From Aphrocallistes beatrix (taxonomy: Eukaryota > Porifera > Hexactinellida > Sceptrulophora > Aphrocallistidae): 64,000 nucleotides of DNA. Where the stretch lies: positions 911,001 to 975,000 of the forward strand of contig OY725506.1 in assembly GCA_963281255.1 (NCBI GenBank), written 5' to 3'. The notes below the pieces were generated by a model that saw nothing but the letters and a program-made list of their open reading frames with translations, ran no database searches and was not told the origin of the DNA. Of the stretch, positions 13,168 to 62,617 are shown one piece after another (position 1 is the stretch's first letter; each line of letters starts with the position of its first letter). Both the position numbers and the translations under genes were made by a program.

Positions 13168-13240
13168 GGCGTGGTGGCCAAGTGGCTAAGGCGTCGGTCT
13201 CGTAAACCGAAGATCGAGGGTTCGAATCCCTCTCACGCCT
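13168..13240 (+). tRNA. tRNA-Thr (anticodon CGT)
   Basis: A full cloverleaf can be drawn. The acceptor arms are GGCGTGG and TCACGCC. The anticodon stem TCGGT/ACCGA encloses the loop CTCGTAA, giving anticodon CGT. The T arm is GAGGG/CCCTC with loop TTCGAAT. The A box TGGCCAAGTGG and B box GGTTCGAATCC match RNA polymerase III promoter consensus. No intron and no encoded CCA, as expected for a eukaryotic nuclear tRNA. Confidence 0.96.
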
Positions 13241-31003: not shown

Positions 31004-32938
31004 ATGGGAATTAGTAGTTCTAAAGACATTGAAAAAAAGGAAACAATGGTATTATCAGCTAAAATGGGTGAGTGGGATAAAGTGTGGGAAATCCTGGATA
31101 AGAATCCACATTTTGTCAATTGTATACCTGAAAAGCGCTCATGGGGAATCTTACATCAGGCTTGTCACTGGAAGAACGAAGAAGCTATCAGGAAAATCCT
31201 ATCAACTCCAGGATGTGATCCCAACCTCGTTACTAAGAACGGATTGCATGCGATTCAGATATCCAAAAAAACACATTTGAAAGCACTCATTTCATCAGCA
31301 CAGCGCAGTGATATACATATTTCAGCTGAGAATAAACTTTTCGCTAAATCGCAACAAACCGATGTTCCAGTGATAGAAGAAATGAGTTACGCCCTTGAAA
31401 ATGCAGATCTGTCACAAGTAATCAACCTTTTAGACACACATCAACACCTCGTTAACATGGTCTCTACTAAAATGGGATTGTCCCCGATCCATCTAGCAGC
31501 CCTGCTTGGGAATGTTAAAGCTATGACAAAGATACTCTCCTACCCTGCTTCTAACCCGGATGTCAAGACTATTGAAGCTCCTCTTAATACGCACGGAACT
31601 GGCAAGACAGCTGAACAGCTGACTGACAATGAAGAAGTGAAGGGTGTAATTTTTTGGAAAAAACAGAAACTGAAACAGGAGTACTATGAATGCCCTACTT
31701 TTGTGGCGATCAGTGAGAGTAACATTATTATTAGAAGATACGTCTGTTCGACCATTGAAGCACACAGAGGTTTGCTCTGTCCTGAGAGATTCAATCCCGC
31801 ACTGTTGGACCTGTATACTAAAATGCTAGAGGAGATGTTCTTGTACATTGTTTATGAGGATAAATGGGAAAGTGTGAAGGAAATTGTGAGTAGAGAACTT
31901 TACAATTGTTCGCGTGAGTTGGCTTTAGAATGTAACGCTACAAACTCTAAAGATGCATTCTTCAAGCACTTGATAACAATCTATGCAAATGAGAATTTAC
32001 AAGTCTACAGAAAGTTGTACTCAGAGCTCCATTATCACAAATTGAATGAGGAATATAATCCAGAATTTTGCACCTACTCAACATTACTGAATGCTGTTCT
32101 CTTTTTCTTACAGGATTTACAGAGCTATACAAATGTTACTTACATGGGGGCGAAACTAAGCCCAGAACAAATCGACCGATATTCAAATGGAACTGAATTT
32201 GCTTGGCTTTGTATAAAATCTTGCACGAATACGAAGAACTTAGTCGATATATCTGAGGGTTGTATCTTCATAATTGATAATAGTTTGCTATGCAAATGGT
32301 CTCCTAAGTCAATCGCATTTTTAGAAGATAAGAATAAAATGAAATATCTCTACCCGTGTGGAGCTCAATTCCGTGTAACTAGTGTGGATAAATCGAAGTC
32401 CAAAATACATATTTTTCTGAAGTTAATAAGTTCAGTCGATCCCAGTCCAATCAGACCTTTGAGCGAAGGAACTACAAATAAAACTGAAAAAAGTGTCGCA
32501 GGAAATTTTGAAAATGAGATTGAATTAGCTGCTAAAATGGGTGAATGGGATCAAGTATGGAAGCTACTCGGAAAGGATCCCTCCTTGATCAATTGCATCC
32601 CGGCAGAGAGATCATGGGGAATCCTGCATCATGCTTGTTACTGGGAGAATGAATCCGCTGTCAGAAGAATCTTGTCTTCGCCCAGCTGTGATCCTAACCT
32701 TGTGACGAAGGATGGTCTGCGAGCAATTGAGATTACAGAAAAATCAGATTTACAAGCTCTCATCACCAACACAGTGCAGCAGTTTGAAAATAAAATATTT
32801 GCTGAAATGCAACACGCCGATAAGCCCAAAATAGAGAAGATAAACTCTGCGATAGAAGAGGATGACTTGACACAAATAATTCTATTATTCGATGAAGACC
32901 AACATCTTGTTGATGTGACATCTCCAGTACAGGCTTAG
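31004..32938 (+). CDS. Ankyrin / ADP-ribosyltransferase-fold protein, first half (before frame break)
   Basis: An open frame of 644 residues starting MGISSSK, a good myristoylation signal. Residues about 20-110 and 125-210 are ankyrin repeats (AAKMGEWDQ, WGILHQACHW, GLSPIHLAALLG). Residues about 230-480 have the ART fold of the R-S-E class but with lost catalytic signatures: the usual Tyr-Arg-Gly reads TYMG (Met381), the STS motif reads KSCT, and the ExE motif reads KMK (445-447), while the structural YLYPCGAQFRV strand is kept. A second ankyrin block (about 505-640) then starts. The frame stops at TAG 32936-32938, where the intact paralogue at 56.5-60.3 kb reads on. This is therefore the upper half of a roughly 1250-residue gene. 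Predicted membrane-anchored pseudo-ART plus ankyrin region; partners unknown. Confidence 0.85.
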   Translation: MGISSSKDIEKKETMVLSAKMGEWDKVWEILDKNPHFVNCIPEKRSWGILHQACHWKNEEAIRKILSTPGCDPNLVTKNGLHAIQISKKTHLKALISSAQRSDIHISAENKLFAKSQQTDVPVIEEMSYALENADLSQVINLLDTHQHLVNMVSTKMGLSPIHLAALLGNVKAMTKILSYPASNPDVKTIEAPLNTHGTGKTAEQLTDNEEVKGVIFWKKQKLKQEYYECPTFVAISESNIIIRRYVCSTIEAHRGLLCPERFNPALLDLYTKMLEEMFLYIVYEDKWESVKEIVSRELYNCSRELALECNATNSKDAFFKHLITIYANENLQVYRKLYSELHYHKLNEEYNPEFCTYSTLLNAVLFFLQDLQSYTNVTYMGAKLSPEQIDRYSNGTEFAWLCIKSCTNTKNLVDISEGCIFIIDNSLLCKWSPKSIAFLEDKNKMKYLYPCGAQFRVTSVDKSKSKIHIFLKLISSVDPSPIRPLSEGTTNKTEKSVAGNFENEIELAAKMGEWDQVWKLLGKDPSLINCIPAERSWGILHHACYWENESAVRRILSSPSCDPNLVTKDGLRAIEITEKSDLQALITNTVQQFENKIFAEMQHADKPKIEKINSAIEEDDLTQIILLFDEDQHLVDVTSPVQA

Positions 32939-32958
32939 CTGCACTGCATAAGGCAGTA

Positions 32959-34791
32959 TTGCTAGGCGATGTGGAGGTGGTAACGAGGATACTCTCCTAC
33001 CCTGCTTCTAACCCAGATGTCAAAACTATTGAAGCTCCTCTCAACACATACGGAGCTGATAAAACAGCTGAACAGCTGACTGACAGTGAAGAAGTGAAAG
33101 AAGTGATTGGTTGGAAGAAACAGCAACTAAAACAGGAATACTACGAATGTCCTACTTTTGTAGATATTAACGACAGCAATATTTTATTGATGAAGTATGT
33201 TTGTACGAGTATTGAAGCACACAGAGGCTTACTCTGTTCTGAGAAATTAAATCCTCAACAATTCGAAGCATTCCCTGTGCTGATAGAGAATATGTTCTTG
33301 TACATTCAGTATAGTTCTATGTGGAAGGCTGCAAAAGTGATTGTGAGTAGAGAACTCTACCAACATTCTCGTAGTTTATCCCTGGAGTGTAATGAAACTA
33401 CAACAGAAGAGTCCTTTTACAAAAAATTGATAAAAATTTATACAAACAGTAGTGCTTATTCTTCAATAAACTCCGAACTTCGCAACCAACCAATGTCTAC
33501 CAAACCCGCTCCAGAATTGAGCTCATATTCTGCCTTGCTCAACGCAATCCTCATAGTTTGGCGGGACTTGTCAAGCTACACAGAAGTGACTTACAGAGGA
33601 GTGACGCTAGGAGCAGAGCAGTTTGATCGATACTCAGTTGGAACAGAATTCGCCTGGATCAATTTCGTATCAAGCACCAATATAAAGAGTGTAGCAGAGA
33701 GATTCGTACAGGAACCAGCCCCACTATCGAGTAGTTCTATAAAAAGTATGCTTAAAAAGCTGAAGTTGCTGAGTACTTCGCCAGATCAAAGTGTCAGCTG
33801 TATCTTCATAATCGATAATAGCCTAAACTGTAAATGGTCGCCCAAATCAATTGCCGAGTTTTCCCAATTTAAGAATGAGAGTGAGTATCTGTATCCGTGT
33901 GGAGCTCAATTCCGTGTAACTAAAGTCGACAAATCTGAATCCCAAATGCATATCTACTTGGAGTTAATATGTCCGATTGATTCTACCCCACTGAGATCTC
34001 TGTTCGAGGAGATAAAGGCTAGAGCTGAATCTGGTATACTGACTGTGGAATCTCATCTCGATGAGTTTCAAACGGACGTAGAGGAACTTAGAGTAGCTGT
34101 AGATATTGCTCTTGATCACAAATCAGGAATGGTCGAATTGAAAACGAATTCTCGGTTTAGACTATATTGGGAAAAGATCGAGGAGAATATCGCAATCGAT
34201 TTATCTGGATATTTTTGCAAATGCTGCGATACTTATTGTCATGAAATTTGCGATTCTCAGTGTTTCAATGACGATTTTAATAGAAAAGTTTGCAACTTTT
34301 CCATCTCTAGTGATCATTGTACTGTGTGTCCAGGCAAATGCCATCACTCACAACATGCTGCCAAAAGCTTGTCAGCGGAATATGTACAGGAGAGAGCTAA
34401 TCAGGACTGTTCAGAATCACTAAACTGTGCGTTGATAGAGAGAGATTTCAATGATTTGATAAAAATAATTACTCCACTCTCTTCCAAGCTACAGGAGGAG
34501 AAGTCAGAACTGGACAGTACACTCGATTCGGTGAACTCAAGAATTCACGAATTTCAGACAATTCTTCAGAAGAGCGATGCAGCTGACCAGCAACAGCTAA
34601 ATGCGATTCGAAGTGAACAGGATTTCATTAAAGTCATGTACGAAAGTTCAGCGACCAAGTATGAAGAGACGTTAAACCTTTGTAAGCTTATAATAAGTGA
34701 CTTCCCTCCCTTCCTTAATTCCCCCGATTTTTGTAATCTTAATACCATAACTCGTGATTTGTACCTTAGATACTATTTGATGATGAATTGA
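32959..34791 (+). CDS. Ankyrin / ADP-ribosyltransferase protein, second half (after frame break)
   Basis: A frame of about 610 residues, open from 32959 but without a convincing ATG of its own. Similarity to the paralogue resumes about 10 bases before the upstream stop, in a frame shifted by one base. It holds the rest of an ankyrin block and an ART domain with all three R-S-E signatures: VTYRG (Arg213), FVSST (Ser238-Thr240) and ESE (Glu307-x-Glu309) before YLYPCGAQFRV. Family knowledge says these bind NAD and transfer ADP-ribose, often to arginine. The tail (about 400-475) is Cys/His rich, with CKCCDTYCHEIC and CTVCPGKCHHSQH, followed by a coiled coil to the end. Either one base is missing here (pseudogene or sequence error) or this half is expressed separately. 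The preserved catalytic residues favour recent or artefactual breakage. Confidence 0.85.
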   Translation: MLGDVEVVTRILSYPASNPDVKTIEAPLNTYGADKTAEQLTDSEEVKEVIGWKKQQLKQEYYECPTFVDINDSNILLMKYVCTSIEAHRGLLCSEKLNPQQFEAFPVLIENMFLYIQYSSMWKAAKVIVSRELYQHSRSLSLECNETTTEESFYKKLIKIYTNSSAYSSINSELRNQPMSTKPAPELSSYSALLNAILIVWRDLSSYTEVTYRGVTLGAEQFDRYSVGTEFAWINFVSSTNIKSVAERFVQEPAPLSSSSIKSMLKKLKLLSTSPDQSVSCIFIIDNSLNCKWSPKSIAEFSQFKNESEYLYPCGAQFRVTKVDKSESQMHIYLELICPIDSTPLRSLFEEIKARAESGILTVESHLDEFQTDVEELRVAVDIALDHKSGMVELKTNSRFRLYWEKIEENIAIDLSGYFCKCCDTYCHEICDSQCFNDDFNRKVCNFSISSDHCTVCPGKCHHSQHAAKSLSAEYVQERANQDCSESLNCALIERDFNDLIKIITPLSSKLQEEKSELDSTLDSVNSRIHEFQTILQKSDAADQQQLNAIRSEQDFIKVMYESSATKYEETLNLCKLIISDFPPFLNSPDFCNLNTITRDLYLRYYLMMN

Positions 34792-45336: not shown

Positions 45337-48300
45337 ATGTCTGACGAAAGAAGACACGAAATTAAAGTGGTCATAGAACTTGAGCCATTATTGACACCTC
45401 AAACCATCGTTAAACTTCAAAACGCAATCGGTTTACCTGCACGAATCGCACAAGAAACTAGAAACGATCCCATTAAGTTCCTCTATGCACTGAAAGAATG
45501 GGACCAATTCGATCCTTCCACGTTCGATTTAGCGTTACAAGGTGTCGGTGGGAGTATCCTTCACACAGCCAGGAAGCTAGAATGGCTGTCCGACCCGAGT
45601 CACAGGCAAAGAGTGCACAAAGAAGAACCGAAATCCATGAAAACACTTGTCCAGCTGTTAACACAGGGAATGACCTCACATGAATGGATGCTGCTAGCTC
45701 GTACTAGCTCCGATACAGGACCAAAGTCCATGTTAAAACAATGCATTGAGAACAGAGTCATCACCTCTAACATGGTGGATCTCTGCGAAGACCTCGAACT
45801 CGTGAAACGGAACGATTTAGCAAACAAAGTTCTTACTTTTGCATCCACGTTCCAAAATTTGAGTAGCAGGAAATTTCGCCAGCAAATCCTGGAAGAAATA
45901 GACCGTGATGACAAGGTAGAGCTAGTAGTGTGGCAGTTGAGCTTGAGAGAGTTCATCCGAACTCAGAATAAGGACGTGAGTGTTATCCTCGATCAAGATC
46001 CCGTCCCCATAGAATCCGTCTACATTCCCCTGACCGTGATCAAGGTGGAGAGTCCCGAGAAGAGAGTAGGGGCAGAGAGCGGCTGTGAAGAGATTGAATT
46101 CCTCCGAAATATCCACAGTAAGGTAGCCCAGGAATCGGTCGAGGTGGTGGACTTTGATTCAATAGTGACCAGTTTTGACTCCTCCCGTCATGAACTCTGG
46201 TGTCTGATTGGCAGTCCAGGAAGCGGCAAGAGTTTTCTCTGTAAGCATTTCGCGTACATGTACGGCACCAGCACACTGACTAACTTCCGGTACGTTATCT
46301 CCATCCCGTGCCGGAGTCCTGAATGGCACAAACTCGAGGATGCAAGACACGAAGCGGGGAACATCGTTGATGGCGACTTCATCGTGTGTTGGCTCTCACT
46401 GAGCATGTTTTCAGGTGCGAAGTGGAGCGAATCCCTCTCTGAGCAGCTGGTGAAATCGGACGGAGAGGGACTTCTGATTATCCTCGACGGAGCCGACGAG
46501 TTCATAAGGGATGTGCCATTCGACGAGACCCTATTGAACTGTTTGCTTAAGCGACGCATCCTCCCGCTAAGCACTGTCCTCGTAACCAGCCGACCTTACG
46601 CGTGGTCCGAACTTCAGGAGAAGTCCCAATTCCGTGTGGACGCACATTTCCAGGTTCTCGGTTTCTCTCCACAAAACCGAGACCTGTATTTCGAAAAGTT
46701 GAACGACGTTAACGAAATGTTGTATCGACATGAAGAAATCGAACAGCTTTCTTTGATCCCAGTGAATGCGAGCTTATTCACCGCTCTATTCAACGAGTCC
46801 GAGTCGATCCTGACTTTCACGCTTTCCCACATTTACACCCAGCTGATTGTGTACATGATTAGGCGCCAGTTATCCCGTATGGGCCTAAAGGAGCACAGCA
46901 AAGTCTGTGATTTATCCAAATTCCACCCAGGAATCCAGAAATGTATTCGTGCCATTGGGAAGGAAGCAAACAAGGGCATTTTTGATCGAGATCTCAGCTC
47001 CGATAAAAATATTCTATTAAAGATCGGAGACACGAAAGTGAACAGCGAGCGTCTCGGTCTGATACAGGCACACATGAAAGTGGGTCGTTACGGTCATCGT
47101 GTGAAGGTGTGGACTTTCCAACACCTCACAATACAAGAATTCATGGCCGCCTATTCAATTTGCGCCAACTCCTGGACGATCCAATGTTTAATTTTCCGCT
47201 ACATAACTTCCTCCGTCCAATACCTGTCCATGTACAAGATGGTGATTAGGTTTGTGAGTGGCATCTTGAGGCAGAACGCAGGTCGCTTGACGCCCATTCT
47301 CTGCAGACACACACTCCCTAAACCGATGTCATTCTCTGAGGTGCCGATGTATCATAAGCTGAGTTATAACACAGAACTAATTGACATTTCAGATTGGAAG
47401 GAATTTGCTCAATCATTCCTCCTATTATGCACCCTAATTAGCGAAATAAACTGTTCTGATTCCATTCCCAAACATTTCGCACATTTCAAAGAGAAGTTCC
47501 CTTCCCCTCTCTACCTATATTTCTGGTCCACTGTCTCTCCGAATGAATGGCATTGTTTCACACAGTCATTGGAATATGTTCATGACTTTCATGTTCTATT
47601 TATTCATTCCGGTTTTGTCAACGCTAGACAGTTCCATTCTCTCCTAACTCCACTTTCCTCGTGCCATCTCGATTATCTAGCACTAGAGTTTTTTGAGAAA
47701 GACTTCGACACCATCCTTTCCTACACTGAACCGCTCTCCTCTGCCACTCTACCTACTGACACCAGAATTAGCATTGACTTCACAGAGTGCGACCTGACAG
47801 CTTGTAACGATTCTCAGCTGCTGTTCCCTTCTAACAACCAATTCACTGGAAGTTTGTCGTTATATCAATCTCCAATGAACCATTCAATGCTACTGAACTT
47901 GACCAATCAATTCACGTCATTGCACAATTTGTTCTATCGTCCCGAGTCGAATGATTCTGATTGGTCAATCATTCATGAATTAATAACAGACAATCCGCTC
48001 AATGGACTGTACATTATAGACTTCAACGGTTTCCTCCCATTTACAGCTGACCTATCAGCGCTCTCCTCGCTGAAAGAGTTTCATTGGTATACGAATCAAG
48101 ATAGCTACGAAGCATTGCAATACTTGCTTAGACTCAGTTCCATCACATACCTCTATCTAGTCTCTCTTTCCTCCCAATCTCCTAATCCATCCTACCGAGA
48201 CTCTATGACACGAATAATCTCTGAGAATTCCACTTCACTGAGAGAGATCAACTTATCTTATTTAAACAGAATTGGGTTCGACAGCTGGAGTAGTTGCTTA

Positions 48301-48687
48301 GATTTGGTTTCAACCTGTTCCAACTTGATATCGTTACAACTGTTCGATTGCCACTTCACACCTGATGATATGAGCTGCTGGTACAGAGCTTTAACAGAAA
48401 TGAAGTCACTTGTTTACTTGACACTCTCTTTAACTCCATTACGAGACTCTGGAATGCTGGTCCTATGTCACAGTCTGAACTACCATCCAGCCATTAGGTG
48501 TTTATGTATTCGAGATTGCGAACTCAGTTCTGACTCGTGTCTCCCGATCAAGTACCTCATCCTGACACCTCCACACATCAGAAAACTCAAACTTTCCAAA
48601 TACGAACTTTCTGATCCTGATCCGAAACAGCTGGAACTCCTCGAACAGTCAGCTGAGCAATGTTCTATCCAGATTGAATGGCAATAG
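45337..48687 (+). CDS. NLR-type innate immune receptor (death-fold, NACHT, LRR)
   Basis: An intronless frame of 1116 residues starting MSDERRHEIK. Residues about 1-90 and 100-190 are two helical blocks resembling death-effector/death folds (NRVITSNMVDLCEDLELVKR). The NACHT ATPase has Walker A GSPGSGKS (residues 292-299) and Walker B LLIILDGADEF (379-389), then an STVLVTSRP sensor-like motif and the NACHT winged-helix region with FQHLTIQEFMAAY. Residues about 750-1110 hold degenerate leucine-rich repeats (LREINLSYLNRIG, LISLQLFDCHF, IRCLCIRDCELS). This is the NLR layout used for intracellular sensing of microbial or damage signals, expanded in sponges, cnidarians and sea urchins. ATP-driven oligomerisation through the N-terminal domains is the family mechanism. 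The assignment of the N-terminal blocks as DED is less certain than NACHT and LRR. Confidence 0.92.
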   Translation: MSDERRHEIKVVIELEPLLTPQTIVKLQNAIGLPARIAQETRNDPIKFLYALKEWDQFDPSTFDLALQGVGGSILHTARKLEWLSDPSHRQRVHKEEPKSMKTLVQLLTQGMTSHEWMLLARTSSDTGPKSMLKQCIENRVITSNMVDLCEDLELVKRNDLANKVLTFASTFQNLSSRKFRQQILEEIDRDDKVELVVWQLSLREFIRTQNKDVSVILDQDPVPIESVYIPLTVIKVESPEKRVGAESGCEEIEFLRNIHSKVAQESVEVVDFDSIVTSFDSSRHELWCLIGSPGSGKSFLCKHFAYMYGTSTLTNFRYVISIPCRSPEWHKLEDARHEAGNIVDGDFIVCWLSLSMFSGAKWSESLSEQLVKSDGEGLLIILDGADEFIRDVPFDETLLNCLLKRRILPLSTVLVTSRPYAWSELQEKSQFRVDAHFQVLGFSPQNRDLYFEKLNDVNEMLYRHEEIEQLSLIPVNASLFTALFNESESILTFTLSHIYTQLIVYMIRRQLSRMGLKEHSKVCDLSKFHPGIQKCIRAIGKEANKGIFDRDLSSDKNILLKIGDTKVNSERLGLIQAHMKVGRYGHRVKVWTFQHLTIQEFMAAYSICANSWTIQCLIFRYITSSVQYLSMYKMVIRFVSGILRQNAGRLTPILCRHTLPKPMSFSEVPMYHKLSYNTELIDISDWKEFAQSFLLLCTLISEINCSDSIPKHFAHFKEKFPSPLYLYFWSTVSPNEWHCFTQSLEYVHDFHVLFIHSGFVNARQFHSLLTPLSSCHLDYLALEFFEKDFDTILSYTEPLSSATLPTDTRISIDFTECDLTACNDSQLLFPSNNQFTGSLSLYQSPMNHSMLLNLTNQFTSLHNLFYRPESNDSDWSIIHELITDNPLNGLYIIDFNGFLPFTADLSALSSLKEFHWYTNQDSYEALQYLLRLSSITYLYLVSLSSQSPNPSYRDSMTRIISENSTSLREINLSYLNRIGFDSWSSCLDLVSTCSNLISLQLFDCHFTPDDMSCWYRALTEMKSLVYLTLSLTPLRDSGMLVLCHSLNYHPAIRCLCIRDCELSSDSCLPIKYLILTPPHIRKLKLSKYELSDPDPKQLELLEQSAEQCSIQIEWQ

Positions 48688-56498: not shown

Positions 56499-59400
56499 TT
56501 AAAAAATCTTGCTCTCTTCTAGGAGATCTAAAGTTTCAGAGTATACAGTGAATGATATATCAATTTTATTTCTAATCGCTAGACCAATCTTTTCAAGCAT
56601 GTGAAAAACGTGTTGATTGTCTGCAGTTCCTGATTTCCCTTCCCCCGATATATCTGTATCAAAGATACGACGTATTTCACAGTTTCTTTTCATTTTTGTT
56701 ACTAAATTAGTCATTTTTTCCTTCATATCGTTTGGTTCTGGATACCAAATTCTTGATATACGGAATTGAAAATTCCATATTACATCCATCAAACATTTAT
56801 TCCTCTCGTGATACGGGGCCCATCTATCTTGATCTAGTGCTACTATATAATCCAGTTCCTTCAATCGCAATCGCAATCCCATTTTATTCATTAAAATTTC
56901 GGATTTTAGACATCTCATCCTAGTTAGCAGCATGGCAGTGGATTCTAATAACTGATTGAATTCCTCTTCTCCTTCAATCGATTCTGAGTGCATCACGTTG
57001 GTATCCTGATCTGAGTGGCATTGACATTGACAAGCAATGCAGTAGTAATCCGATGTAGCGAATGAACACAGCTTGCTGGAATGATCGTAAGAGGGATCAT
57101 GACACGGATTATTGCAATGACGTAAAAGTATTGAGGGAATTTGTTGAAATTCTTGGTTTAAAACTTTGGGGTTCGAAATACTTCCAACTTGGCAGTATGA
57201 TTGATTATTTTTCCGTAATACTATATTCAGCATCATTTTGTAGCCTAGAATTTCATCTATGATTTGCCTAAGTTGATCCAGCACAATGTTAAATTCGTCG
57301 AGCTCACTTGCCACTTTCAGGATATTAAACTCAGCTCTAAGTTTAACCTCATTAAACAGAGATCTCGGCGCGGTAGGATCAACTGGACATATCAGTGTCA
57401 AGTAGATATACGTTGGATATCCCGTCTTGTCGACTTTAGTTACACGAAATTGAGCTCCACATGGATAAAGATATTCCTTCTCATCCTTAAATTCAGAGAA
57501 ATCAGCAATTGACTTGGGCGACCACTTACATTTTAGGCTATTATCGATTATGAAGATACAGTTAATGAAGGTACCGGAACTTAGTCGGGGATTCAACCAA
57601 TTTACGTTCAAATGTTTTAAAAATTTTTCGACATAATGTGAAGTTTTAGACTGTATAAATCTTTCTGTTGCTACACGCTTATCATTGCTGCTTGACACAA
57701 AATTGAGCCAAGCGAACTCGGTTCCCACTGAGTATTGGTCAATATGATCTGATCGTACTCTCATTCCTCTGTAAGTAACTTCTGTGTAGCCTTGCAATTT
57801 ATTCCAAAAAAAGAGAATTGAATTCATTAGCGTAGAGTATGAAGAAAATTCGTAATTCTGATGAACAGCTTGGTTGCGGAGTTCATCATTCACTTTTTTA
57901 TAAATTTGAGTTTTCTCGTTTGTATATATTTCAATCATGTATTTGTAAAAAGAAAACTTAAAACTTGTTGCTTTCAATTTTTGAGCTAACGAACGAGAAT
58001 GTTTGTGAAGTTCTGGATATGTTATATGCATAGCATCTGTCCATTTGTCAGTACTATAATGAATATGCAAGAATAACTTCTCCATCAAATCTGGAAGCAC
58101 GTTAAATAGTTCAGGATTGAAATTCTCAGGGAGTAAGATTCTGTGATTTTCAATGGTTGTATAAACATATCTCATTAGTATTATATTGCTGTAACTGATG
58201 TCTACAAAAGTAGGACATTCGTAGTATTCCTGTTTCAGTTGCTGTTTCTTCCAACCAATCACTTCTTTCACTTCTTCACTGTCAGTCAGCTGTTCAGCTG
58301 TTTTGTCAACTCCGTATGTGTTGAGAGGAGCTTCAATAGTTTTGACATCTGGGTTAGAAGCAGGGTAGTCGAGCACCTGAATCACACTATATACGTCTCC
58401 CTGAACTGCAGCATGATGTAGTGGACCTAATCCGACCGTAGGAGAAATCTCGTTAACAAAGTTTTTATTTGTGTCTATGATATTTAAGATTTCTGTCATG
58501 TTTCCACTTTCAAGTACAAAATTATATTCGTCAATTTGGGTTATAGCTTTGATCGCATCTTGAATGAGTTCCTTCAATCGATGAGTTTTCGCTATATCAA
58601 TTGGACACAGGCCGTCCTTCGTTTTGAGTTGAGGATCACGTCCAGGGACAGAAAGAATATGTTTGACGGCTTCTTCATTTTCACAAAAACAAGCTTGATG
58701 CAGGATTCCCCATGAACGCTCTTCAGGAATACAATTGACTAGATAATTATGAGCCATTAAAATTTCCATTGCGATATCCCAGTGCCCCATTTTAGCTGCT
58801 AATACCATTGTACTTAGTTTATTTCTAAACGAGTAATTACTGATAAATCTTGGTTCTCCAAATAGAGATCTCAGTGGATATGTATCTTCAGTTTTGCTTA
58901 TTAGCTGTAAATAGATGTATGTTTTAGTATTAGACTTTTCAACTTTGTTCACACGGAATTGAGCTCCACATGGATATAGGCATTGGACGTCAATCTTAAA
59001 TTCATTTAAATGAACGACGTGTTTGGGTGACCATTCGCATTTTAGGCTATTGTCGAATTCTAATATGCAATTTGGGCTTAGAAAAGTCTCTTTTATACTA
59101 CTTGAACTAATTTCAGTTGTACAAGCTATAAAACATGGCCAAGCAAATTCAGTTCCAACTTTGAATCGTCTAATTTGGTCAGTCGTGGCATTCATACGGC
59201 TGTATGTAACACCAGTGTAGCTGTCTAGATCTTCCCAAAAGAAGAGAATCGCATTCAAAATTGTAAAAAATACGGAAAACGTGGTATCTTTTTGGTTCTC
59301 CAAAAACAAACTGAAGATTTCAGAATTTATTCCTTTGAAGATACCTGTATTGTGATTAATGTAGGTTGAAATGAAGAACTTGTAAAAATAGTCTTTTGAA

Positions 59401-60326
59401 TCATTTGCACAACACTCCTCTGCCAGATCATGAGAATATTTATCAAGATTTTCACGCACTATCATCTTGACATCTTCCCATTTGTAGCTGTAATAAATGT
59501 ATAAATAAATATTCTCTATCAGCACAGGGAACGCTTCGAATTGTTGAGAATTGAATCTCTCAGAACAGAGTAAGCCTCTGTGTGCTTCAATACTCGTACA
59601 AACATACTTCACCAATAAAATATTGCTGTCGTTAATATCTACAAAAGTAGGACATTCGTAGTATTCCTGTTTCAGCTGCTGTTTCTTCCAACCAATCACT
59701 TCTTTCACTTCTTCACTGTCAGTCAGCTGTTCAGCTGTTTTATCAGCTCCGTATGTGTTGAGAGGAGCTTCAATAGTTTTGACATCTGGGTTAGAAGCAG
59801 GGTAGGAGAGTATCCTGATCACATTACCCACTTCTCCTAGCAATACTGATTGATGGAGCGGCGTTAATCCAGTTAATGGAGAAACTATGTTGACGAGGTG
59901 ATGATGTGTTTCAATGATGTTGGTTACTTGTGACATGTCTCTCCTTTCAAGTGCAAATTTAATGTTATCCACGTCAGTAACTTGGGACGCTGCGTTTGTA
60001 ATGATTTCTTTCAAGCATGGAATTTTTGTCATCTCAATTGCTTGTAGACCATCCTTAGTCACGAGGTTAGGATCACATCCTGGAGTTGATAGGATTTTCT
60101 TGATAGCTTCTTCGTTCTTCCAGTGACAAGCCTGATGTAAGATTCCCCATGAGCGCTTTTCAGGTATACAATTGACAAAATGTGGATTCTTATCCAGGAT
60201 TTCCCACACTTTATCCCACTCACCCATTTTAGCTGATAATAGCATTGAGTTTTTCAACTTTTCATTTTGCTCAAGAGGGCTCTTAACGACATATTCTTTA
60301 AAATTTTTAATCAAACTGGATGCCAT
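56499..60326 (-). CDS. Ankyrin / tandem ADP-ribosyltransferase-fold protein (intact paralogue)
   Basis: An intronless frame of 1275 residues starting MASSLIKNFKEYVV, without the myristoylation signal of its paralogue. Layout: ankyrin (about 25-215), ART 1 (about 230-490), ankyrin (about 505-690), ART 2 (about 710-985), helical segment, Cys/His-rich tail (CNNPCHDPSYDHSSKLC, CIACQCQCHSDQD, about 1060-1100), coiled-coil end. ART 1 has lost the signatures: TYSR instead of TYRG (376-377), IACT instead of the STS motif, DVQ (446-448) instead of ExE. ART 2 keeps Arg853 in VTYRG, Ser878-Ser880 in FVSSS, and Glu949-x-Glu951 before YLYPCGAQFRV. This R-S-E set belongs to arginine-type mono-ADP-ribosyltransferases, which use NAD. 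No signal peptide, so intracellular action is likely. Target unknown. The start of this gene was captured in the downstream tandem duplication. Confidence 0.9.
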   Translation of the reverse strand: MASSLIKNFKEYVVKSPLEQNEKLKNSMLLSAKMGEWDKVWEILDKNPHFVNCIPEKRSWGILHQACHWKNEEAIKKILSTPGCDPNLVTKDGLQAIEMTKIPCLKEIITNAASQVTDVDNIKFALERRDMSQVTNIIETHHHLVNIVSPLTGLTPLHQSVLLGEVGNVIRILSYPASNPDVKTIEAPLNTYGADKTAEQLTDSEEVKEVIGWKKQQLKQEYYECPTFVDINDSNILLVKYVCTSIEAHRGLLCSERFNSQQFEAFPVLIENIYLYIYYSYKWEDVKMIVRENLDKYSHDLAEECCANDSKDYFYKFFISTYINHNTGIFKGINSEIFSLFLENQKDTTFSVFFTILNAILFFWEDLDSYTGVTYSRMNATTDQIRRFKVGTEFAWPCFIACTTEISSSSIKETFLSPNCILEFDNSLKCEWSPKHVVHLNEFKIDVQCLYPCGAQFRVNKVEKSNTKTYIYLQLISKTEDTYPLRSLFGEPRFISNYSFRNKLSTMVLAAKMGHWDIAMEILMAHNYLVNCIPEERSWGILHQACFCENEEAVKHILSVPGRDPQLKTKDGLCPIDIAKTHRLKELIQDAIKAITQIDEYNFVLESGNMTEILNIIDTNKNFVNEISPTVGLGPLHHAAVQGDVYSVIQVLDYPASNPDVKTIEAPLNTYGVDKTAEQLTDSEEVKEVIGWKKQQLKQEYYECPTFVDISYSNIILMRYVYTTIENHRILLPENFNPELFNVLPDLMEKLFLHIHYSTDKWTDAMHITYPELHKHSRSLAQKLKATSFKFSFYKYMIEIYTNEKTQIYKKVNDELRNQAVHQNYEFSSYSTLMNSILFFWNKLQGYTEVTYRGMRVRSDHIDQYSVGTEFAWLNFVSSSNDKRVATERFIQSKTSHYVEKFLKHLNVNWLNPRLSSGTFINCIFIIDNSLKCKWSPKSIADFSEFKDEKEYLYPCGAQFRVTKVDKTGYPTYIYLTLICPVDPTAPRSLFNEVKLRAEFNILKVASELDEFNIVLDQLRQIIDEILGYKMMLNIVLRKNNQSYCQVGSISNPKVLNQEFQQIPSILLRHCNNPCHDPSYDHSSKLCSFATSDYYCIACQCQCHSDQDTNVMHSESIEGEEEFNQLLESTAMLLTRMRCLKSEILMNKMGLRLRLKELDYIVALDQDRWAPYHERNKCLMDVIWNFQFRISRIWYPEPNDMKEKMTNLVTKMKRNCEIRRIFDTDISGEGKSGTADNQHVFHMLEKIGLAIRNKIDISFTVYSETLDLLEESKIF

Positions 60327-61419: not shown

Positions 61420-62337
61420 ATGGATCATCGATGTAGAGAAGTAAGAATTCCAATTTCATGGGGTATCCTAGCTGGAAAGCTCTGGGTTCCATCAACTCCT
61501 ACTCATGAACAGAAGTCAAAAGCATTAGCTCTTCATGGATGGTATGACAATGCAGGTAGTTTCGATCCTCTCATCCAGTTCCTTCCACGTGACATGACTC
61601 TGCTAGCTCTGGATCTACCTGGACACGGATTCTCGGATCACTACAATCAGAAGATTCCCTACCGTTTCACTGGATTCATATCCGATATACTGGAAGTGCT
61701 CAGTTACTTAGCTTGGAAACGTCCCATTCTTATCGGCCATAGTTTCGGTGGGATGTTAGCGAACCTAGTAGCTGTCACTTTACAGAATGAAATTAGCAAA
61801 CTGATCATAATCGAGGCTATGTACACAGATAACCAAGTGATTCCAGAAGATGTATTTGTTGGTTTCATGCAACGTAAATACGAGGAAGATGCACAAGTAA
61901 AACCAAATAAAGCTAAGTTATATTCTTCAAAGTTGGAAGTAGCAAAGTCTATTTTGCGAGGAAATCCAGATATCAGTAATCTGTCTTCTGCAGAATGTCT
62001 AGCAACGCGAAGTTGTAAAGAAGTGGAAGGAGGATTTGTATTGACAAAAGATAGACTGATGACACCGTTACCGATAGAATATAATCGCAGCATATACTGC
62101 AGTTCTATTTTTCCAAAATTTTACGATCGACTCACAATGCCTATCTTATACATAAATGGAAAAAAATCTAAATACACTTTTAGAGAATGGATGGAAAGAG
62201 ATGGTGTTGTCAAGTTACCATCTACATCCCAGATAATGGAGGTGGGTGAGGGGCATATGGTACATATGAACGCTCCTGATCAAGTTGGAAAGATCATGAG
62301 AGAGTTCATTACGCAAAGATATACGTCCAAATTATAA
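61420..62337 (+). CDS. SERHL: SERHL/kraken-type alpha/beta-hydrolase
   Basis: A single-exon frame of 305 residues, the usual family length (about 310). Oxyanion-side motif LALHGWYDNAGSFDPLI, then LLALDLPGHGFSDH, nucleophile elbow GHSFGG (Ser108), and late catalytic His in GEGHMVHMNAPDQV (His279). This is the serine hydrolase-like (SERHL2) / kraken group, thought to be peroxisomal or digestive in some animals. The C-terminus SKL is a perfect type-1 peroxisome import signal, so a peroxisomal location is well supported. The substrate is unknown. A tandem copy starts at 63395. Confidence 0.93.
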   Translation: MDHRCREVRIPISWGILAGKLWVPSTPTHEQKSKALALHGWYDNAGSFDPLIQFLPRDMTLLALDLPGHGFSDHYNQKIPYRFTGFISDILEVLSYLAWKRPILIGHSFGGMLANLVAVTLQNEISKLIIIEAMYTDNQVIPEDVFVGFMQRKYEEDAQVKPNKAKLYSSKLEVAKSILRGNPDISNLSSAECLATRSCKEVEGGFVLTKDRLMTPLPIEYNRSIYCSSIFPKFYDRLTMPILYINGKKSKYTFREWMERDGVVKLPSTSQIMEVGEGHMVHMNAPDQVGKIMREFITQRYTSKL

Positions 62338-62482
62338 CTGCTATTGTTTTATCTTAGTTAGGTTCTTTATTAACTATACAAAGCCGTATTCACCAGGTGT
62401 GAAGTGGTCCGGTTGTGATTAAAAAGTGGTCATGTTGAAACCAGTCCGATCGTACAGAATGGTCCCTTTTGAGGCTAAATTG

Positions 62483-62617
62483 ATCCAGGATTTCCCACAC
62501 TTTATCCCACTCACCCATTTTAGCTGATAATAGCATTGAGTTTTTCAACTTTTCATTTTGTTCAAGAGGGCTCTTAACGACATATTCTTTAAAATGTTTA
62601 ATCAAACTGGATGCCAT
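62483..62617 (-). pseudogene. Truncated first-exon copy of the ANK-ART gene
   Basis: Starts MASSLIKHFKEYVV and follows the intact paralogue to KVWEIL (about 45 residues). Similarity then ends at about 62483, the junction of the tandem duplication. The remaining frame to 62390 is unrelated. Confidence 0.9.

Follow-up and report, generated by a model that had tools for sequence, protein, structure and literature searches.

The window analysed here, a 64,000-nucleotide stretch of the Aphrocallistes beatrix contig OY725506.1 (positions 911,001 to 975,000), carries on its minus strand a gene, here called gene B, that encodes two consecutive modules of ankyrin repeats followed by an ADP-ribosyltransferase (ART) domain. 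Both ART domains belong to the kind whose active site is made of an Arg, a Ser and an E-x-E motif (R-S-E); the second retains the complete set, and the first has lost all of it. A similar division is found in another tandem gene of the window, gene A, which begins about 31 kb into it. We give roughly an even chance to the reading that these genes represent a tandem variant of an ankyrin-ART (ANK-ART) architecture, in which module 2 is of the active type and module 1 was silenced twice and retained as a folded docking or packing domain.

Gene B is a single open reading frame (ORF) of 1275 codons that occupies exactly positions 56499–60326. Its ANK-ART-ANK-ART order, completed by a C-terminal region, is borne out by the frame itself, by Pfam and by a family ART profile built from 12 single-ART relatives, as the preliminary description of this DNA had proposed when it spoke of one protein with two such modules. 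The ankyrin regions of module 1 (approximately residues 26–212; 59691–60251, minus strand like all parts of gene B) and module 2 (approximately residues 503–691; 58254–58820) rest on Pfam ankyrin matches, with limits drawn by hand from the module alignment. ART module 1 (residues 225–492; 58851–59654), delimited by profile, alignment and predicted fold, is of the catalytically dead type, with S376, A401, D446 and Q448 at the catalytic positions. ART module 2 (residues 704–995; 57342–58217), for which Pfam adds to the same three lines of evidence, is of the active type and keeps R853, S878, E949 and E951. The C-terminal region of about 280 residues (56502–57341) matches neither a Pfam family nor the Cys/His-rich motif of the family. 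A near-identical copy of gene B, P0001, shows eight differences from it and no stop, so that the 1275 codons are open in both.

The two ART domains differ in how easily they are recognised. Pfam detects the ankyrin repeats and only one ART domain, in module 2, which scores 32.4 bits against a curated cut-off of 22.3. The same ART model leaves module 1 unmatched up to an E-value of 10; the sole Pfam match of this module is Glyco_hydro_101, at 17.4 bits and below the cut-off of 25. The family profile, however, finds an ART at residues 225–489 as well as at 704–991, the second match being split in two around an insertion, and module 1 is thus recognised as an ART by this profile and by its predicted fold. 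Structure prediction of both modules, which the preliminary description had proposed as a check, gave an ART fold with good confidence for each; the matches of both predicted folds include ART2.2, an R-S-E enzyme of mammals. The PARP family is not among the Pfam matches of gene B, which has R-S-E residues in its place.

The catalytic columns, namely the R, the S and both E of E-x-E, were aligned with those of 29 single-ART relatives, a table from which the near-identical P0001, the truncated P0027 and the fragment P0028 were left out and which does not include P0035–P0039. All four positions are present in 27 of the 29 relatives, the exceptions being P0023 (R to K) and P0032 (first E to H). 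Against this background, module 1 of gene B has S, A and D,Q and keeps none of the four, whereas its module 2 has R, S and E,E and keeps all of them, exactly as had been claimed from the letters alone. At the 80% conservation level, module 1 of gene B kept 0 of 4 catalytic positions and 30 of 42 others (Fisher p 0.011); with conservation set at 90%, the counts were 0 of 4 and 14 of 18 (p 0.0096). Its losses exceed chance and are aimed at the active site.

Gene A lies on the plus strand in two pieces that use different frames. The first (31004–32938) encodes the first ankyrin region, ART module 1 and the ankyrin part of module 2; the second (32941–34791, or 32959–34791 by another delimitation) encodes the rest of module 2 and a C-terminal Cys/His-rich motif. 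The preliminary description had treated the paralogue at 31.0–34.8 kb as one gene; in this assembly its reading frame shifts between 32.93 and 32.96 kb, but a near-identical copy, P0002, which lies on the same 1.15-Mb contig as P0001, reads through at that point. P0002 is itself shorter by about 145 residues in its first ankyrin region, near the N-terminus, and gene A and its copy are therefore both damaged, by different defects. The Pfam ART model matches module 2 of gene A, and module 1 has no Pfam match of any kind. The catalytic columns of gene A module 1 are M, S and K,K: the R and the E-x-E are gone, as had been claimed, but the first Ser of S-x-S is kept (in KSCT), so that one of the four positions remains, and a loss of R, S and E-x-E in both genes of the window is thereby ruled out. 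Its losses (three of the four catalytic positions and 10 of 42 other conserved ones) give a Fisher p of 0.062, or 0.046 at the 90% level. Module 2 is intact at all four positions in gene B, gene A, P0002 and P0003, the last being a third tandem protein, encoded on another contig.

P0003 is decisive for the history of these losses. Three protein searches returned P0001, P0002 and P0003 as the only tandem homologues; one of the searches scored only the 7989 candidates with the most shared words, and the collection searched seems limited to single-frame ORFs, so that intron-bearing tandem genes could be missed. P0003 may belong to another species, as an orthologue, or be one more paralogue of the same species, and the argument from the gene tree is the same either way. 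Its module 1 retains all four catalytic positions (with S-C-T where its module 2 has S-S-S) and has lost 14 of 42 other conserved positions. In two gene trees, which omit P0002 in addition to the sequences left out of the table, module 1 of P0003 and module 1 of gene A are sisters with full support (100/99 in the first tree, 100/99.9 in the second). The alignments A1 and A2 have 31 rows each. A constraint joining the dead modules of genes A and B, a group chosen for the test after the first tree had been seen, was rejected (approximately unbiased test, p-AU 0.00018). Since the module 1 of P0003 is intact and yet the firm sister of that of gene A, the losses in genes A and B appear to be separate events, a conclusion that is well supported by the trees and residues, and the replacements differ as well: S/A/D/Q in gene B, M/S/K/K in gene A. 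The dead state of module 1 is not conserved among the tandem homologues, and an ancestral pair of pseudo-enzyme and enzyme is ruled out by the full R, S and E-x-E of P0003 module 1. The preliminary description had itself named a homologue with this full set in its first module as evidence against its interpretation, and P0003 is such a homologue.

Was module 1 simply left to decay once its catalysis had gone? A codon model was fitted to the four modules of genes A and B, on a fixed tree joining the two module 1s, for 206 codons of the ART part outside the patches of sequence exchange described below. The ratio of nonsynonymous to synonymous substitution rates (omega) was 0.177 for module 1 of gene A (p 8e-9 against 1) and 0.265 for module 1 of gene B (p 3e-6 against 1); for module 2 of gene A it was 0.393 (p 0.052 against 1). 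As an average over the branch, and with synonymous divergence (dS) saturated, module 1 has thus evolved as a constrained protein, with omega between 0.18 and 0.27. These values speak against free decay and do not date the constraint. Comparison of the near-identical copies, in which the losses are common, showed few changes: within the limits set by the family profile, there were 4 among 523 residues of ART module 1 and 7 among 574 of ART module 2. An omega for the ankyrin part (129 codons, the first 160 alignment columns) was not used, since the branch of gene B module 1, its length close to zero after sequence exchange, sat at the upper bound of 7.4.

From this evidence a mechanism can be proposed. 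The product of gene B would be a cytosolic protein with two ankyrin + ART modules of the R-S-E, ARTC-like kind. In module 2, the Arg and Ser would bind NAD+ and the E-x-E would transfer ADP-ribose as single units to arginines of target proteins, the E-x-E motif being that of arginine-directed ARTs; to judge from its residues, module 2 most likely works as an intracellular mono-ART, and probably as an arginine-directed one. The ankyrin repeats would most likely select the target or a partner. Module 1 would once have been catalytic, would have lost catalysis independently in both genes of the window while keeping the ART fold, and could now act next to module 2 as a domain for docking or packing that has no catalysis of its own, much like the N-terminal ART-like domain, itself inert, of actin-modifying ARTs with two domains. 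We think that module 1 is still in use, most simply in such a docking or packing role, because its fold is kept and because it changes no faster than module 2, although any role assigned to it is inferred.

Several observations weigh against this reading. Omega for module 2 of gene B is 0.661, indistinguishable from 1 (p 0.41), which is unexpected for an obligatory enzyme. The module 1 branches are long and span periods on both sides of the loss, and with dS saturated an omega below 1 is no proof of constraint on the dead state. Support for a single group of the three module 1s is weak (84/62 in the first tree, 56/70 once the first 60 residues are removed, 76/59 in the second tree), grouping the two modules of gene B with each other was not rejected (p 0.249), nor was grouping the three module 2s (p 0.151), and a common origin of the tandem layout in genes A and B is accordingly only weakly indicated. 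The copies also swap sequence in patches. In the module alignment of genes A and B, modules share patches of 93–99% DNA identity: one joins module 1 of gene B with module 1 of gene A over approximately the first 60 codons, the other joins module 1 of gene B with module 2 of gene A at alignment columns of approximately 161–260. Downstream of both patches come the catalytic segments, where identity is mostly 0.46–0.78. A block of about 60–100 codons around YPASNPDVKTIEAPLNTYG has 93–98% DNA identity between module 1 of gene B and module 2 of gene A, pointing to gene conversion across modules.

Simple redundancy accounts for much of the same evidence, and we regard it as nearly as likely as the docking or packing reading, although redundancy falls well short of an even chance. 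After the module had been doubled, one active site would have been enough; the catalysis of module 1 would have drifted away twice, its fold being kept only against misfolding, and module 1 itself would do nothing. Independent losses whose replacements differ are what such drift would leave, P0003 still retains both active sites, and the genes show wear elsewhere: gene B has no match to the C-terminal Cys/His motif, gene A is frameshifted and its other copy carries a deletion. However, drift does not readily explain why the losses weigh more heavily on catalytic positions than on other conserved ones, why omega of module 1 lies well below 1, or why amino-acid change between the near-identical copies is no faster in module 1 than in module 2, few as these changes are. 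A wider form of the docking or packing reading, in which the first ART of an intracellular ANK-ART-ANK-ART enzyme became, repeatedly within one animal lineage, a pseudo-ART that selection keeps as a docking or gating partner of the live second ART, with P0003, gene A and gene B as successive steps, is tentative and in our estimate rather unlikely.

A regulatory pseudo-enzyme role of module 1 is possible in principle, but a selected device of this kind, in which the dead module would gate or activate its live neighbour through contact, in the manner of pseudokinase-kinase tandems, seems improbable to us. It would agree with a dead module 1 beside an intact module 2 in both genes of the window, and with the predicted retention of the fold of module 1 and its constraint. 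The preliminary description had gone further and taken the repetition in two genes to imply selection for a pseudo-enzyme paired with an enzyme. The data do not support this: the losses were separate, the module 1 of P0003 is intact, so that the dead state is no shared ancestral device, and two losses both falling on the first of two modules have, by plain arithmetic, a chance of one in four, for which reason repetition alone does not imply selection. Finally, it is very improbable that both genes are decaying copies, or pseudogenes in progress, whose motif losses mean nothing for function: the frameshift of gene A, the residues missing from P0002, a third, truncated copy of the beginning of gene B and the omega of gene B module 2, which is not below 1, would fit, but gene B and P0001 alike have all 1275 codons open, no catalytic position is missing from either module 2, and omega of ART module 1 is far below 1.

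The truncated copy just mentioned (62480–62617, minus strand) consists of 46 codons, with 98.5% identity to the start of gene B over 135 bases and similar upstream DNA. An alpha/beta-hydrolase gene lies at 61420–62337, and what appears by eye to be a second copy of its start lies at about 63.4–64.0 kb; together, and partly by eye, the two copied starts suggest a local tandem duplication. A tblastn search with five family members found no further ART or ankyrin copy in the window. The Cys/His-rich motif, for which we used our own pattern (C-x2-C-x3-C-H-x2-C ... C-x2-C-x3-C-x4-H), is present in 13 of 35 family sequences; in gene A it lies at 34218–34358 and has no Pfam name, and gene B is unmatched. 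Gene A, P0002 and P0003 start with MG, and gene A and P0003 have Ser at position 6 and Lys or Arg at position 7, N-termini that we take to resemble an N-myristoylation signal; gene B starts with MASSL and has no such start. Elsewhere in the window, Pfam identifies an NLR-like NACHT protein of 1116 codons in a single frame, with a weak leucine-rich repeat (LRR) match (45337–48687, plus strand), and genes of the RabGAP-TBC and NHL types, three gene types that point to an animal; a tRNA gene (13168–13240, plus strand) is the one match to Rfam that reaches the gathering threshold in the window.

Dead ARTC proteins, dead/live tandem ARTs in bacterial toxins and ankyrin-guided ARTs in tankyrases are each known, and searches of the open-access literature did not return all of these features combined in a single animal-type R-S-E protein. 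In that literature, as judged by titles and the beginnings of abstracts, with most subscription papers lying outside it, neither an animal fusion of ankyrin repeats with an R-S-E ART nor a dead/live tandem ART in an animal was found. If module 1 has a role, the genes described here would form a natural series from an enzyme to a pseudo-enzyme beside a live twin, with module 1 intact in P0003, partly lost in gene A and wholly lost in gene B, and an active-type module 2 in all. R-S-E ARTs, which in vertebrates are mainly secreted or on the cell surface, would moreover be placed here inside the cell behind ankyrin repeats, with a NACHT gene nearby. Should module 1 be no more than a redundant remnant, the series would illustrate ordinary relaxed constraint after duplication.

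The closest known proteins are the single-ART relatives (P0004–P0008, P0014 and others), in which, as in gene B, ankyrin regions precede an R-S-E-type ART; the best seven have 46–48% identity to gene B module 2 over 99% of the query. Many of them carry the C-terminal Cys/His motif and, unlike gene B, each has one ART. The mammalian ARTC enzymes (ART2.2, ART1; PF01129) share the R-S-E set and the fold with gene B module 2, but they are ecto- or secreted single-domain proteins with neither ankyrin repeats nor a dead and live tandem. Inactive members exist among them: ART3 is listed as K-L-V and ART4 as G-S-E in a table of PMC7955679, and PMC10789625 calls ARTC3 and ARTC4 probably inactive. A predicted pseudo-ART in an animal repeat protein is described in PMC7955679 for the LRRC9 family, where the ART lies between LRR blocks; unlike gene B, this family has LRRs in place of ankyrin repeats, an H-Y-E-like site and one ART domain, with no live partner in the chain. 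In tankyrases, according to PMC10789625, ankyrin repeats recruit substrates to the ART, but this is a single poly-ADP-ribosylating PARP domain of the H-Y-E type, whereas gene B has an R-S-E ART. The nearest parallel to the tandem itself is offered by the A components of binary actin-modifying toxins (Ia, CDTa, C2I and VIP2), which, according to PMC4179152 and PMC5310789, contain two similar ART-like domains, of which the N-terminal one binds and the C-terminal one catalyses, a layout that perhaps arose by gene duplication. We found no evidence of common descent of the two tandems; the toxins are bacterial and lack ankyrin repeats, and the loss in gene B is recent and not common to P0003. The order, a dead first and a putatively live second domain, would be the same: the motifs and predicted folds of gene B fit it, but P0003 carries both residue sets.
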